Source: DHVE2 group archaeon (GTDB lineage Archaea > Thermoplasmatota > Thermoplasmata > Thermoplasmatales > Aciduliprofundaceae). From it: a stretch of DNA of 64,000 nucleotides. The notes under the pieces were generated by a model. That model was not told the DNA's origin and searched no databases. It saw nothing but the letters and a program-made list of their open reading frames with translations. Where the stretch lies: the NCBI GenBank assembly GCA_026993785.1, contig JALWRZ010000010.1, positions 337,199 through 401,198 on the forward strand. Direction: 5' to 3'. The position numbers and the translations under genes are program-made. Positions 36,309 through 45,941 of this stretch are shown in pieces. The first letter of the stretch is position 1. Each line of letters starts with the position of its first letter.

Positions 36309-37939
36309 TAAATCCAGAGCTGGAAGAAATAAAAGACATCGTTGCTCAAAATTTCAAATTTTATGATTTTAGAATTTTTCCCGATCACCTGGAATTCTAT
36401 ATAACCTTTGAGAATGAGAAAACTTTAGAGATGAATTTTGAAAACCTGCGACTTCAATTTAAGGAGAGAAATTTGATTCCCTTCCTCCGAAGAAAGGGAG
36501 GAGAATATGTTATCATGGTAATGAAAAATCCACCGCGGAGGTATCGGAGCGTCTATATTAATATCATCCTCCTGGTACTGACCTTTGCATCTACCATATG
36601 GGTAGGCTCTTTGTACTATTATAGTTATTATGGCGTCTCTGATTTATGGCACCAGCTGTGGGGCGGGTTCCTTTATTTTTCAGTACCTCTTCTGGCCATT
36701 CTGGGCTCCCATGAGATGGGCCATTACTTTGCTGCTAAGAAGCACAGGGTAGATGCCTCACTCCCATTCTTCATACCTGCACCCACGATATTCGGAACTT
36801 TAGGGGCGTTCATATCCATGCGGGATCCAATCCCCAACAGGAAATCTCTTGTGGATATAGGCCTGGCTGGTCCTATAGCAGGTTTTATCGTGGCCATTCC
36901 CGTAACCCTCATAGGAATCTATCTGGGACATATTCATACACCATCGCCGCCACCACAATCTGGAGTTGTAGTGCATCTATTTCATATGCCTCTTATCTAC
37001 TATCTCTTCTTTCTTATAATTCCACCCTCGGAGTTTATGCATCCTGTGGCTATGGCGGGATGGGTTGGTTTCGTGGTAACAGCCATAAATCTCTTCCCCG
37101 TAGGACAGTTAGATGGCGGGCATGTGGCCAGGGCACTGGCAGGCGAGAAAGCAAAGTATATAAGCTATGGATTCGCAGCGCTTCTTGTCGCCCTAGGATA
37201 CTTTTACATTGGGTGGCTCATCTTTGCCTTTCTTGTGATATTTTTGGGACTAAGACATCCCCCACCCCTTAATGACGTTGTGAAGTTAGATAAGAAAAGA
37301 ATCGCCCTTGCGGTAAGCGGGTTCCTACTTCTGGCAGTAACCTTTGTACCCGTGCCCATAGAGACCGTGCATGAAAGTCTAGAGCTAGAGGTATCTACCA
37401 CATCCACATTTCTCATTGAGGGGCTCAGTGATTCTGCTACCTTACATATCTGGATCAACAATACTGGAGATGTAGAAGAAAACATCACCTTGAAAGTTCA
37501 AGGCCAATTCATAATCCCTCAGCATAATTTTACCTTTAATCTGTCCAAGGGAGAAGGAAAAATGATAAAAGAGGATGTTTGGATGCTGAAAAAGGGGATG
37601 CATACCCTCCATATAATGGCAAGCACTATAACCAACACAGTATACTGGAAAAATATTACCTTCAAATGCTTTGAGAAGAGCCCCAGCTTTAGCTTTAATA
37701 GAACTATAGTGCATGGCTATGTTTTCAATGTGACCCTCTCCAATTTCGGGATGGCCAGAAATTTGGAATTTTTGAGCTTTAACAACGTGAGCTTTAATAT
37801 CACAAATCTACCGAGTACCTCCCTCTACCTAGAAAGTAATTCCTCTTACCAGCTACAGTTTGTTGTGACTGCTCCAACCATTATTTTAGCAGTAGACCCT
37901 GAGAATTACGAGGTTACCTGGTTGAAAGTAGAGATTTGA
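36305..37939 (+). CDS. Site-2 protease (M50) with C-terminal extracytoplasmic domain
   Basis: SHEMGHYFAAKKHRVDASLPFFIPAPTIFGTLGAFISM, NLFPVGQLDGGHVARAL; C-terminal about 180 aa beta-rich. Confidence 0.93.
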   Translation: MINPELEEIKDIVAQNFKFYDFRIFPDHLEFYITFENEKTLEMNFENLRLQFKERNLIPFLRRKGGEYVIMVMKNPPRRYRSVYINIILLVLTFASTIWVGSLYYYSYYGVSDLWHQLWGGFLYFSVPLLAILGSHEMGHYFAAKKHRVDASLPFFIPAPTIFGTLGAFISMRDPIPNRKSLVDIGLAGPIAGFIVAIPVTLIGIYLGHIHTPSPPPQSGVVVHLFHMPLIYYLFFLIIPPSEFMHPVAMAGWVGFVVTAINLFPVGQLDGGHVARALAGEKAKYISYGFAALLVALGYFYIGWLIFAFLVIFLGLRHPPPLNDVVKLDKKRIALAVSGFLLLAVTFVPVPIETVHESLELEVSTTSTFLIEGLSDSATLHIWINNTGDVEENITLKVQGQFIIPQHNFTFNLSKGEGKMIKEDVWMLKKGMHTLHIMASTITNTVYWKNITFKCFEKSPSFSFNRTIVHGYVFNVTLSNFGMARNLEFLSFNNVSFNITNLPSTSLYLESNSSYQLQFVVTAPTIILAVDPENYEVTWLKVEI

Positions 37940-38603
37940 ATCGCAATGCATCTTCCCACATATTGGTGTTATTGAACATCACATAATCCCCGTCCTTCAC
38001 CAATTTTTTGAGCCGCAATAGCTCCTCGTCACTGTAGCGATATCTGTAACTGCCTATGCCATGGAGCCTATAATAGGAAAACTCGCCCCACACCTTCTCT
38101 CTTTTGAATGGGTCCACAACATGAATCAATTTAACCTCTTGACATATTTTTCTCACGGTTTCATCGCTCCAATTCCCTCTCGGTTCCCATCCGAACACAA
38201 AATCCCGCTCTATGGAGTTAAAGAACTCGTATATGTTTCTCACATTCTCCTCTTTCTCTTTGAAACTTGCGGGACTTTGAAAGATTATTATATCTGCGTG
38301 AAGTATTTTAGCTATCTCCCTGAAGTGTTCCCAGGATTCCATCGTATCCTGATTTACTTTAAAAAAGCCGAAGTCCCCCATTTTTCCTTTGTATCTTCGA
38401 TATGTAGGACTGCTAGGTGGATGAGTTATAGTCTGCGGCGCTTTTAAAACGAACTCGAAATCATCAGGAGCTTGCTCCCTCCATTTAGCAGCCAGTTCTG
38501 GGGAAATTGGCGTATAAAAGCTTTTCTGTATTTCCACTACCTTGAACTCTTCGAAATATTTCTTTCGCGATGCCGAGAACCCACAGGTTCCTATGTGAAT
38601 CAT
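37914..38603 (-). CDS. DUF72 family protein
   Basis: MIHIGTCGFSASRKKYFEEFKVVEIQKSFYTPISPELAAKWREQAPDDFEFVLKAPQTITH; start at 38603. The ORF-track extension to 38984 runs through a repeat element. Confidence 0.9.
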   Translation of the reverse strand: MIHIGTCGFSASRKKYFEEFKVVEIQKSFYTPISPELAAKWREQAPDDFEFVLKAPQTITHPPSSPTYRRYKGKMGDFGFFKVNQDTMESWEHFREIAKILHADIIIFQSPASFKEKEENVRNIYEFFNSIERDFVFGWEPRGNWSDETVRKICQEVKLIHVVDPFKREKVWGEFSYYRLHGIGSYRYRYSDEELLRLKKLVKDGDYVMFNNTNMWEDALRFKSLLSTR

Positions 38604-38639
38604 CAATATCTCTAAGAAAAAAGGGAATTTAAAACCTTC

Positions 38640-38895
38640 CCCAATGGGAACCACCAGCGGGTTCCCATCCCCTCCTGCAACCAAACGATGCGATGAACCT
38701 CCGGCGGGTTCCCATACCATCCAGCATCCACACTGGGAACCACCAGCGAGTTCCTTTACCTCCTGCACTAGACCCCTCCAGCGGGTTTCTAGTACTTCCA
38801 GCAACCCTGGGAACCACCAGCGGGTTCCCATTCCCTCCTGCAACCAACCAAACACGTGGGGGTGTAGAGAGGGGGTGAAACCCCCTCCGTAGGGA
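38640..38895. repeat. Hairpin repeat array (five hairpins plus conserved tail module), copy 1
   Basis: Hairpins at 38646-38666, 38695-38712, 38735-38754, 38768-38792, 38809-38829, most with ccagc/ccggc loop core and a ycctgcaacc or yccagcaacc spacer; tail cgtgggggtgtagagagggggtgaaaccccctccgtag. Confidence 0.9.
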
Positions 38896-38928
38896 AAGTT
38901 TATAAATTCACGCTCTTTACCATTAAAT

Positions 38929-39441
38929 ATGGATGAGATTATGAAGAAGGTGGAGGCTGTTCTGTTCTCTTCTGAAAACCCCATGAGGGTTGGAGAAATC
39001 GCCGAGATAATTGGTCACCAATCTTCTGAAGTTAGCAAGGCTATGAAGAAATTGAGAATGGAATATGAGAAGAGGAAGGGGGCTATAGAAATAGCAAAGA
39101 TAGGAAACAAGTATGTTATGCAGTTGAAAGAAGAGTATCTGGAATATGGGTATCGCGTGGGTAAGAGGGAGATGAGCGATGAGGTGCTTCGCACCCTGGC
39201 TATTATAGCTTACTATCAGCCTATTACGCAGAGCAAGCTTCGGGAAATTATTGGCTCCAGAGTTTATGAATATGTGGATGAGCTAAGACACCGTGGCTTC
39301 ATTTATGGGAAGAAATCCGGAAAAACTGTGGTGTTGAGAACTACCAAAAGATTCAACGAGTATTTTGGAATAGACGCATCCAAGCCGGAAGAAGTTAAAA
39401 AATTTCTGGAAGAGAAGGCAGGAGGTGAGAAAAATGAATAA
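38929..39441 (+). CDS. scpB: Segregation and condensation protein B
   Basis: KKVEAVLFSSENPMRVGEIAEIIG, LRTLAIIAYYQPITQSKLREIIGSRVYEYVDELRHRGFI. Confidence 0.93.
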   Translation: MDEIMKKVEAVLFSSENPMRVGEIAEIIGHQSSEVSKAMKKLRMEYEKRKGAIEIAKIGNKYVMQLKEEYLEYGYRVGKREMSDEVLRTLAIIAYYQPITQSKLREIIGSRVYEYVDELRHRGFIYGKKSGKTVVLRTTKRFNEYFGIDASKPEEVKKFLEEKAGGEKNE

Positions 39442-43665: not shown

Positions 43666-45138
43666 TTATATATTTTTTCTCTCCTGGAACACTGGGGTAT
43701 TGCGAAGCCACTCAACATCGCTAATATAGAGATCCCTAATATCCTTCAGACCCAGGGTGATCATGGCAAGCCTCTCGAGGCCGAGTCCCCAGGCAAGAAC
43801 TGGATATTCGATACCTAGAGGCTCCGTCACCTCCGGTCGAAATATACCTGCACCTCCTAACTCCAACCATTCGCCGTTGTAGTATACCTCCACCTCCAAA
43901 CTGGGCTCAGTGTATGGGAAATATGAAGGTCTAAATCTTATGGTGGGAAAGCCCATCAGAGAATAGAATTTTTTAAGGATGCCTAATAACATGCGGAAAT
44001 TGGAATCCTCGTCCATGTAAATCCCTTCAATTTGAGTGAATTCTGGAAGATGCGTGGAATCCATGTTCTCTCTTCGGAACACACGACCTATGGAGAACAT
44101 CCTTACCGGGGGCTTCCGATGCTCATATAAATAGCGAATTGAGTTGACCGTAGTATGGGTTCTAAGCATAGCTCTCTCTGCCACCTCTCGGCTCCACTTA
44201 TACTGCCATCCTCGAGATATTCCTCCACCGTTCTCATGCATATCTTTGACTCTCATCATATATTCCTCATCCTCAATCTCCAATCTCTCCGGTTTCTTTA
44301 GATAGAATGTATCCTGTAATTCCCTCGCTGGATGGTCCTGGGGTATGAAAAGAGCATCCATGTCCCAGAATGTGCTTACCACATAATCCCCCTGCACCTC
44401 CTCGAACCCCATCATCTGAAATATTTTTCTTATCTTCTCAATAATCCTGGTGAGTGGATGAATTTTCCCTCCATACACCTTGGGTGCAAATAAACTTACA
44501 TCGTATCTCTTTAGCTCATAATCCCTCCATTTTCCACTTTTGAGAAGCTCTGGGGTAAGCTGGGTAATCTCTTCCTTGAGCTCTATGCCCTCCTTCAAGA
44601 TTTTCTCTCCCAGAGAAGTAAGCATTACGTATCTTCTAACCCTTTCTTTTTTAGCAATTAAACCCTTTCTTTTCAAGAGATCCTGAAGAATTTCTCTATC
44701 CACTTCCTTTTCATCCACGCATCTCTCTTTAAGCATCTCAAGAACCCTTTCCTTCTCTCTTATCTTCGCTTCTACATCCACAAATTTTAGCCTGCCCCTC
44801 TCAATGGGAATGCCCATCTTTTTGAGGTGTCCAACACCTCGGCTAACAACATCCTTGGGAAGGATCTGCGATAGCTCCCCTATATCTATTTCTCCCTTCT
44901 CCTTTAAGATGTCAAAAACTCTTCTCTCAGGAAGAACCTCATCTCTATTCAGACAATATTTGACCTCCAATTTCTCCTCCACCTTAACTAAACCTTTCAC
45001 TCGAAGCCAAGAAACTCCGTTCATAACCTTAACAAGCTCATCAAAGCCTCCAAGATTCATTATTTCCTCCACACTCAATTTTTTACCTGCATCACCGAGA
45101 ATCAGAAGTATCTTCTTCTCTATGTTGCTAAGCTCCAT
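43666..45138 (-). CDS. pheS: Phenylalanyl-tRNA synthetase alpha subunit
   Basis: GGKIHPLTRIIEKIRKIFQMMGFEEV, MDALFIPQDHPARELQDTFYL, LRTHTTVNSIRYLY, AWGLGLERLAM; start at MELSNIEKKILLILG. Confidence 0.95.
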   Translation of the reverse strand: MELSNIEKKILLILGDAGKKLSVEEIMNLGGFDELVKVMNGVSWLRVKGLVKVEEKLEVKYCLNRDEVLPERRVFDILKEKGEIDIGELSQILPKDVVSRGVGHLKKMGIPIERGRLKFVDVEAKIREKERVLEMLKERCVDEKEVDREILQDLLKRKGLIAKKERVRRYVMLTSLGEKILKEGIELKEEITQLTPELLKSGKWRDYELKRYDVSLFAPKVYGGKIHPLTRIIEKIRKIFQMMGFEEVQGDYVVSTFWDMDALFIPQDHPARELQDTFYLKKPERLEIEDEEYMMRVKDMHENGGGISRGWQYKWSREVAERAMLRTHTTVNSIRYLYEHRKPPVRMFSIGRVFRRENMDSTHLPEFTQIEGIYMDEDSNFRMLLGILKKFYSLMGFPTIRFRPSYFPYTEPSLEVEVYYNGEWLELGGAGIFRPEVTEPLGIEYPVLAWGLGLERLAMITLGLKDIRDLYISDVEWLRNTPVFQERKNI

Positions 45139-45174
45139 AAATGTGGATATCCGCCCGCTTTTTAAAACTTTCCC

Positions 45175-45262
45175 CACTAGACACCTCCAGCGGGTTTCTA
45201 GTACTTCCAGCAACCAACAAAAATCGTGGGGGTTTAGAAAGGGGGCGTAGCCCCCTTCGTAG
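45175..45262. repeat. Hairpin repeat element (one hairpin plus conserved tail module), copy 2
   Basis: ctagacacctccagcgggtttctagtacttccagcaacc (45177-45215) matches 38768-38806 with one mismatch; tail cgtgggggtttagaaagggggcgtagcccccttcgtag. Confidence 0.9.
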
Positions 45263-45293
45263 AAATAATTAAATTGGAGATGCATTTCACTTT

Positions 45294-45941
45294 ATGGAAA
45301 TTTGCAGGGGTTCAAGATGTCTGAAAGTTGAGCTAATTGCCTATTCTTTGCCCAAGGAGGGTGATGTGGACAAACTTGTGGCGGAAAGTGGGGCCATATC
45401 CCATGCTCCTGAATTCAGGGAGCTTGATGAGAAGAGGGTAAGACACCTTATAGAGTTGCTGCGAAAGCTGGGCCATGAGAGTGTATTCGAGCATGCATGC
45501 TTTACCTTCCGTGTTGAGGGCATATCACGGGTTTGCACGCACCAGCTTGTTAGGCATAGATTAGCGAGTTATACCCAGCAGAGTCAGAGATATGTAAAGC
45601 TTAAAAATCCAAAGTTCATCGTGCCCGAGGCTATATTTGGCAGCCAATTTGAGGAGGAATATATGGAGCTCCTGGAAAAGGCATCAGAGCTGTATCGCAG
45701 AATGGTTGAGGGTGGCATCCGAAAAGAAGATGCGCGATTTATACTTCCCCAGGGTGTTGAGACAAAGATAATAATAACCATGAACGGCCGTGAGCTGCGC
45801 CATTTCTTTAGCCTTAGATGCGAGAAGGATGCCCAGTGGGAGATAAGAAATCTTGCCAAAGCTATGCTCAAACAGGCCTATGAAGTTGCCCCGATTCTTT
45901 TTGAGGATCTCTACAAGAAATATATTGAAAATTACCCATAG
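45294..45941 (+). CDS. thyX: FAD-dependent thymidylate synthase
   Basis: RHRLASYTQQSQRY ThyX motif; FEHACFTFRVEGISRVCTHQLVRHR. Confidence 0.96.
   Translation: MEICRGSRCLKVELIAYSLPKEGDVDKLVAESGAISHAPEFRELDEKRVRHLIELLRKLGHESVFEHACFTFRVEGISRVCTHQLVRHRLASYTQQSQRYVKLKNPKFIVPEAIFGSQFEEEYMELLEKASELYRRMVEGGIRKEDARFILPQGVETKIIITMNGRELRHFFSLRCEKDAQWEIRNLAKAMLKQAYEVAPILFEDLYKKYIENYP

Follow-up and report, generated by a model that had tools for sequence, protein, structure and literature searches.

A modular palindromic repeat adjoining archaeal promoters, probably mobile, in a DHVE2 group archaeon

Both mosaic palindromic repeats and elements of the REP type belong to known kinds of sequence. BOX repeats of pneumococcus form an intergenic mosaic of palindromic modules in variable number, and the GC clusters of yeast mitochondrial DNA are mobile, noncoding hairpin units rich in G/C. 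The REP and REPIN sequences of bacteria, which are accompanied by RAYT, a Y1 transposase, are short extragenic palindromes of high copy number, and their DNA hairpin is thought to be the substrate. According to the RepRanger survey, REP-like sequences are widespread in archaea (PMC12306157), where tRNA introns and the disruption of tRNA genes by mobile elements have also been described (PMC3293823). A single template-switching event during replication, in turn, yields both inverted loops and compensatory changes (PMC8794818).

Here, we describe a family of repeats from deep-sea archaea, composed of head (H) and tail (T) units, in the genome of a DHVE2 group archaeon (1.66 Mb, 14 contigs). The arrays resemble BOX repeats in being modular palindromic mosaics, with unrelated sequences; to our knowledge, neither promoter-flush placement nor loop inversion is known for BOX. 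GC clusters differ in their organelle setting, sequence, and target. REP/REPIN elements are likewise short extragenic palindromes in high copy number, and the presumed role of their DNA hairpin parallels our reading of T/H, but here there is no Y1 transposase, H and T are tandem units of unlike sequence, and the arrays lie flush against TATA boxes. Hairpins maintained by template switching show the same compensatory pairs and inverted loops as T, but they were described for RNA genes (PMC8794818), whereas T is an interspersed repeat that is apparently untranscribed by its neighbors. As in the systems of PMC3293823, H is located in tRNA introns in several archaeal lineages, but it is also an abundant intergenic repeat. 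A literature search that included the exact sequence retrieved no description of the T/H family, its TATA-flush placement, the inverted-loop set, or a companion hairpin that tRNA introns also contain.

The analyzed window, a stretch of 64,000 bp, contains two arrays (Table 1). A sequence-only reading had noticed one hairpin in each of them, with an 8-bp stem, a 3-nt loop, and two differences that preserve pairing. Both hairpins were confirmed exactly by sequence and folding, and both stem differences are present. In single-strand folding, the minimum-energy and centroid structures consist of exactly the 8-bp stem; the folding energies (DNA parameters) are -8.6 and -8.8 kcal/mol, and none of 200 shuffled sequences was equally stable. 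The names scpB, thyX, and topA-like are putative and come from our reading of the gene sequences. Listed open reading frames at 37914-38984 and 43666-45285 cross the arrays, and the true starts are likely near 38603 and 45138.

Table 1. Repeat units and adjacent promoter elements in the window
Feature	Position	Strand	Sequence and remarks
T hairpin, copy 1	38869..38887	+	GAGGGGGT-GAA-ACCCCCTC; 8-bp stem, GAA loop; read and folded
T hairpin, copy 2	45239..45257	+	AAGGGGGC-GTA-GCCCCCTT; 8-bp stem, GTA loop; read and folded
Array 1	38644..38889	+	five H units, then one T unit; fills the gap between two divergent promoters
Array 1, H unit 1	38645..38684	+	hairpin TGGGAACC-ACCAGCG-GGTTCCCA, then CCTCCTGCAACC
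Array 1, H unit 2	38692..38731	+	
Array 1, H unit 3	38734..38773	+	degenerate
Array 1, H unit 4	38769..38808	+	CTAG-stem subtype; overlaps neighboring units in the register used
Array 1, H unit 5	38808..38847	+	
Array 1, T unit	38855..38889	+	CGTGGGGGTGTAGAGAGGGGGTGAAACCCCCTCCG; GTG/G subtype
scpB-like gene promoter	38892..38906	+	BRE-like GGGAAAG and TATA box TTTATAAA; ATG at 38929
Divergent gene TATA/BRE, array 1	38626..38643	-	TTGGGGAAGGTTTTAAATT (reverse strand); abuts H end of array 1
Array 2, H unit	45177..45215	+	CTAG-stem subtype
Array 2, T unit	45225..45259	+	CGTGGGGGTTTAGAAAGGGGGCGTAGCCCCCTTCG; GTT/A subtype
thyX promoter core	45263..45275	+	AAATAATTAAATT; ATG at 45294
Divergent gene TATA/BRE, array 2	45159..45176	-	abuts H end of array 2

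The two hairpins belong to a much larger set. The conserved T leader CGTGGGGGTNTAGARRGGGG has 90 matches in the genome (with at most three mismatches) versus one for the reversed-pattern control, and hence the hairpins are not chance matches. The H head hairpin GGGAACCWCCRGCGGGTTCCC has 65 matches versus none in the controls. The repeats form 48 clusters genome-wide, with H heads and T tails, T being found in both orientations. The tandem H units, approximately 38–47 nt long, comprise a hairpin GGGAACC-WCCRGCG-GGTTCCC followed by nACCTCCWGCAACC; the tandem T units are approximately 32 nt long. The T loops range from 3 to about 100 nt, and the inverted T-like units have a longer loop, either AACCGTAGGTG or one of up to ~100 nt that contains further hairpins. 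Two T subtypes, GTTTAGAA and GTGTAGAG, differ by almost fully linked positions and occur in a ratio of about 43:40. The initial description of a tail module in two copies was thus an undercount, as at least 63 short-loop copies are present.

Of 117 genomes of the order, 13 carry T, and all but one of these belong to a single family. This genome has 72 copies, two congeners have 17 and 9, and the other carriers have 1–4 each. Unit counts throughout were taken from stretches around pattern matches and are lower bounds. The H hairpin is distributed far more widely than T. The exact H core GGAACCWCCRGCGGGTTCC is present in DHVE2, Pyrohabitans, Diapherotrites, Micrarchaeota, Bathyarchaeota, Aenigmarchaeota, and Jordarchaeum records; about a dozen bacterial matches look like chance. 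In a scan of viral contigs, the T leader had no match, and a match of the H core to one contig was taken as chance.

Stem complementarity is kept both in base and in length. Among the 63 short-loop T units of this genome, the closing pair is C-G in 42, T-A in 16, and other in 5 units, with mismatched C-A or T-G in just three (Fisher's test on the C-G/T-A table, 1e-11, the copies not being independent). Both C-G and T-A closing pairs are found in each T subtype. The outer pair of the same units is A-T in 32, G-T in 22, G-C in 8, and A-C in 1 (p=0.01). Of the two compensatory changes proposed earlier, that of the closing pair therefore holds, and that of the outer pair is real but weaker, most G-type copies having G·T. 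The lengths of the G-run and C-run are 5/5 in 50, 6/6 in 6, and 4/5 in 6 units, while 6/5 and 5/6 do not occur in this genome. The expectation that complementarity is maintained was upheld when more copies were gathered: across 21 distinct units with a triloop, 99.4% of the stem cells are paired, 13 cells are changed on both sides (3.9 in shuffles), and none of 500 shuffles matches the pairing or the covariation score, although the relatedness of T copies makes these tests and the p-values above overstate significance. In slid registers, pairing drops to 48–83%. Another explanation—that the covariation is mere descent of two old subfamilies with coincidentally paired differences—draws on the linkage of the two subtypes, but is very improbable given both closing pairs in both subtypes, the many different loops, and the loss of the pattern in slid registers.

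Taking the orientation from the asymmetric T leader, we found six loops that exist as exact reverse complements: TGAAA/TTTCA, CGTAG/CTACG, CGTCAG/CTGACG, CGGAG/CTCCG, CGAAG/CTTCG, and CACAG/CTGTG. The GAA/TTC pair occurs with both C-G and T-A closing. Six inverted pairs compare with 1.7 and 0.9 expected under two null models, and none of 5000 draws reached six. With the relatives added, eight pairs were observed versus 3.8 and 2.3, while the three pairs in the relatives alone are non-significant (p=0.07–0.2). Such inverted loops are the mark of a DNA process, either template switching or arm inversion. As one arm can template the other, covariation in palindromes of this kind is not proof of selection (PMC8794818). 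Although the hairpin structure is real, a selected RNA function does not necessarily follow from its covariation, and template switching is probably a better account of the T covariation than selection.

The arrays occupy a well-defined position relative to promoters, the TATA box beginning about 9–12 nt after the end of the T stem. The consensus aligned at the stem end reads CTTC-GTRGGGAAAGGTTTAAATA. For 33 scanned T ends, a TATA match starts 8–12 nt past the stem, co-directionally with the gene, the scan having also caught some inverted and spurious ends. The A+T content peaks at 11–20 nt past the stem (two bins, 0.78 and 0.71), and most start codons lie 35–45 nt downstream of the T stem in the same direction. 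The H end adjoins the TATA box of a divergent gene in many arrays, including both in the window. By a crude ORF caller, approximately 25 of the 48 arrays lie between divergent genes, 20 between co-directional genes, and 3 between convergent genes. That the arrays sit flush against archaeal TATA boxes points to promoter-directed insertion, of which a limited literature search found no description in archaea. An intrinsic terminator was considered and rejected, since the T stem is followed by CGTRGGGAAAG and a promoter, in place of the T run at a gene end that a terminator would have.

Comparison with congeners indicates that T is mobile, because the corresponding scpB and thyX promoters are free of it in some of them. 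Congeners G001 and G002 have the scpB promoter core RGGAAAGTTTATAAATTC in common with this genome, both without the element. The thyX core is common to G001 and G003, also without it, with slightly different flanks; G002 has another variant of the element at this core. Further promoters carry the element in at least two species, with loops that differ, namely one in G000, G003, and G009, and two in G000 and G002. The former belongs to a topoisomerase-like gene and carries a T hairpin with a differing loop in three species from two genera.

The genomes G007 and G011 have a T unit in frame within an IS4/5-like transposase gene. In the single base-level comparison with an empty site, it replaces ~16 nt of the empty version and is not a clean insertion. 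At four such loci, T replaces a GAA codon at the position expected for the catalytic glutamate, and most of these copies still have an open frame. No target duplication was seen for T.

Several candidate enzymes were considered. The Y1 transposase (PF01797) had no match in this genome, while control genomes were positive, and the TnpB zinc domain was not found; a PATE-like derivative of IS200/IS605 would thus have neither its TnpA (Y1) nor its TnpB partner in this genome. A MITE would depend on an intact DDE transposase; for DDE_Tnp_1, the sole DDE family searched, there was one sub-threshold fragment and nothing above the cut-off. IS4/5-like copies are common in relatives, and their transposase was set aside as the mobilizer, as no genome has more T copies than this one, which retains only a remnant of that IS. 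Tyrosine recombinases were the only tested family to pass, with two members in this genome.

H units also occur outside the T arrays. Several copies lie within tRNA introns predicted by ARAGORN, for which isotypes called across introns are unreliable. Such predicted introns were seen at ten loci from several archaeal lineages, and this genome has two such tRNA genes; no T unit was encountered within a tRNA gene. At six loci, H is flanked by direct repeats (21, 21, 19, 11, 10, and 10 nt), their length not being fixed, and several of them copy adjacent tRNA gene sequence. The foot of the H stem covaries: pair 7 is Watson-Crick in 49/58 copies versus 26.7 in shuffles. The W positions of the CCWCC loop and of the downstream CCWGC are complementary in 46/46 copies from other archaea and 30/32 here. 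Complementarity between positions so distant suggests a possible tertiary contact.

Taken together, T probably belongs to a palindromic repeat that is modular, mobile, and non-autonomous, acts as a hairpin at the DNA level, and inserts next to promoters. The T/H structure would exist in DNA, single-stranded or as a cruciform. The identity of the arms may be kept partly by template switching between them during replication and partly because the mobilizing machinery would need a folded hairpin. Insertion would be directed to, or tolerated only at, DNA just upstream of BRE and the TFB/TBP site.

An alternative is that T is a palindromic operator, bound by a dimeric transcription factor at RAGGGGG-N5-CCCCCTY just upstream of BRE, with copies spread or kept as regulatory sites. 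The fixed spacing to TATA, the polarity towards the gene, and the occupation of the same promoters across genera, e.g., that of the topoisomerase-like gene, agree with it. We nevertheless consider it unlikely for several reasons. Firstly, independent half-sites would not force complementarity at the y-r position, where 58 units with C-G or T-A stand against three with C-A or T-G. Secondly, half-sites explain neither the concerted run lengths, nor the inverted loops, nor loops of up to ~100 nt. Finally, one T unit lies in frame within a transposase gene, and some promoters in congeners have no T.

About equally unlikely is that T, together with H, functions as a structured or cis-regulatory RNA and owes the preservation of its stem to selection. 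Base-paired covariation is what such an RNA would show, and H is expected to be transcribed where it resides in tRNA introns. Some arrays may also be read through from an upstream gene: those between co-directional genes could yield RNA in this way, which is one point against the mobile-repeat account. On the other hand, the T end precedes the TATA box belonging to the gene that it faces, and both window arrays are located between divergent promoters. In the window, the TATA-to-ATG distances are ~25 nt, and hence transcription should begin near the ATG, leaving the array uncovered. Being upstream of both flanking starts, these arrays should not be transcribed from the neighboring promoters. 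Searches of Rfam with the window and the element gave no match at the gathering score, and those obtained with a limit of E = 10 were all insignificant; the fold of the whole array is little better than those of shuffles (z -1.5); and the loop of T is unconstrained in sequence and size. A selected, transcribed structure, the route implied by the sequence-only reading, is thus disfavored by arrays situated upstream of both flanking TATA boxes and starts and by loops in both orientations.

Within the mobile-repeat account, a more specific scenario is speculative and rather doubtful. The repeat could be a miniature archaeal element that targets either the promoter complex or the DNA immediately preceding BRE and moves as a folded DNA hairpin, e.g., via a hairpin-acting tyrosine recombinase, with H being an older, widespread hairpin element that also seeds tRNA introns. 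Integron integrases are tyrosine recombinases that act on hairpins.

Covariation is the usual proof of RNA structure, and the T set is valuable in this respect: dozens of hairpins with matched arms and flipped loops offer a natural test of whether DNA template switching alone yields covariation. The H hairpin, in turn, ties an intergenic repeat to archaeal tRNA introns.
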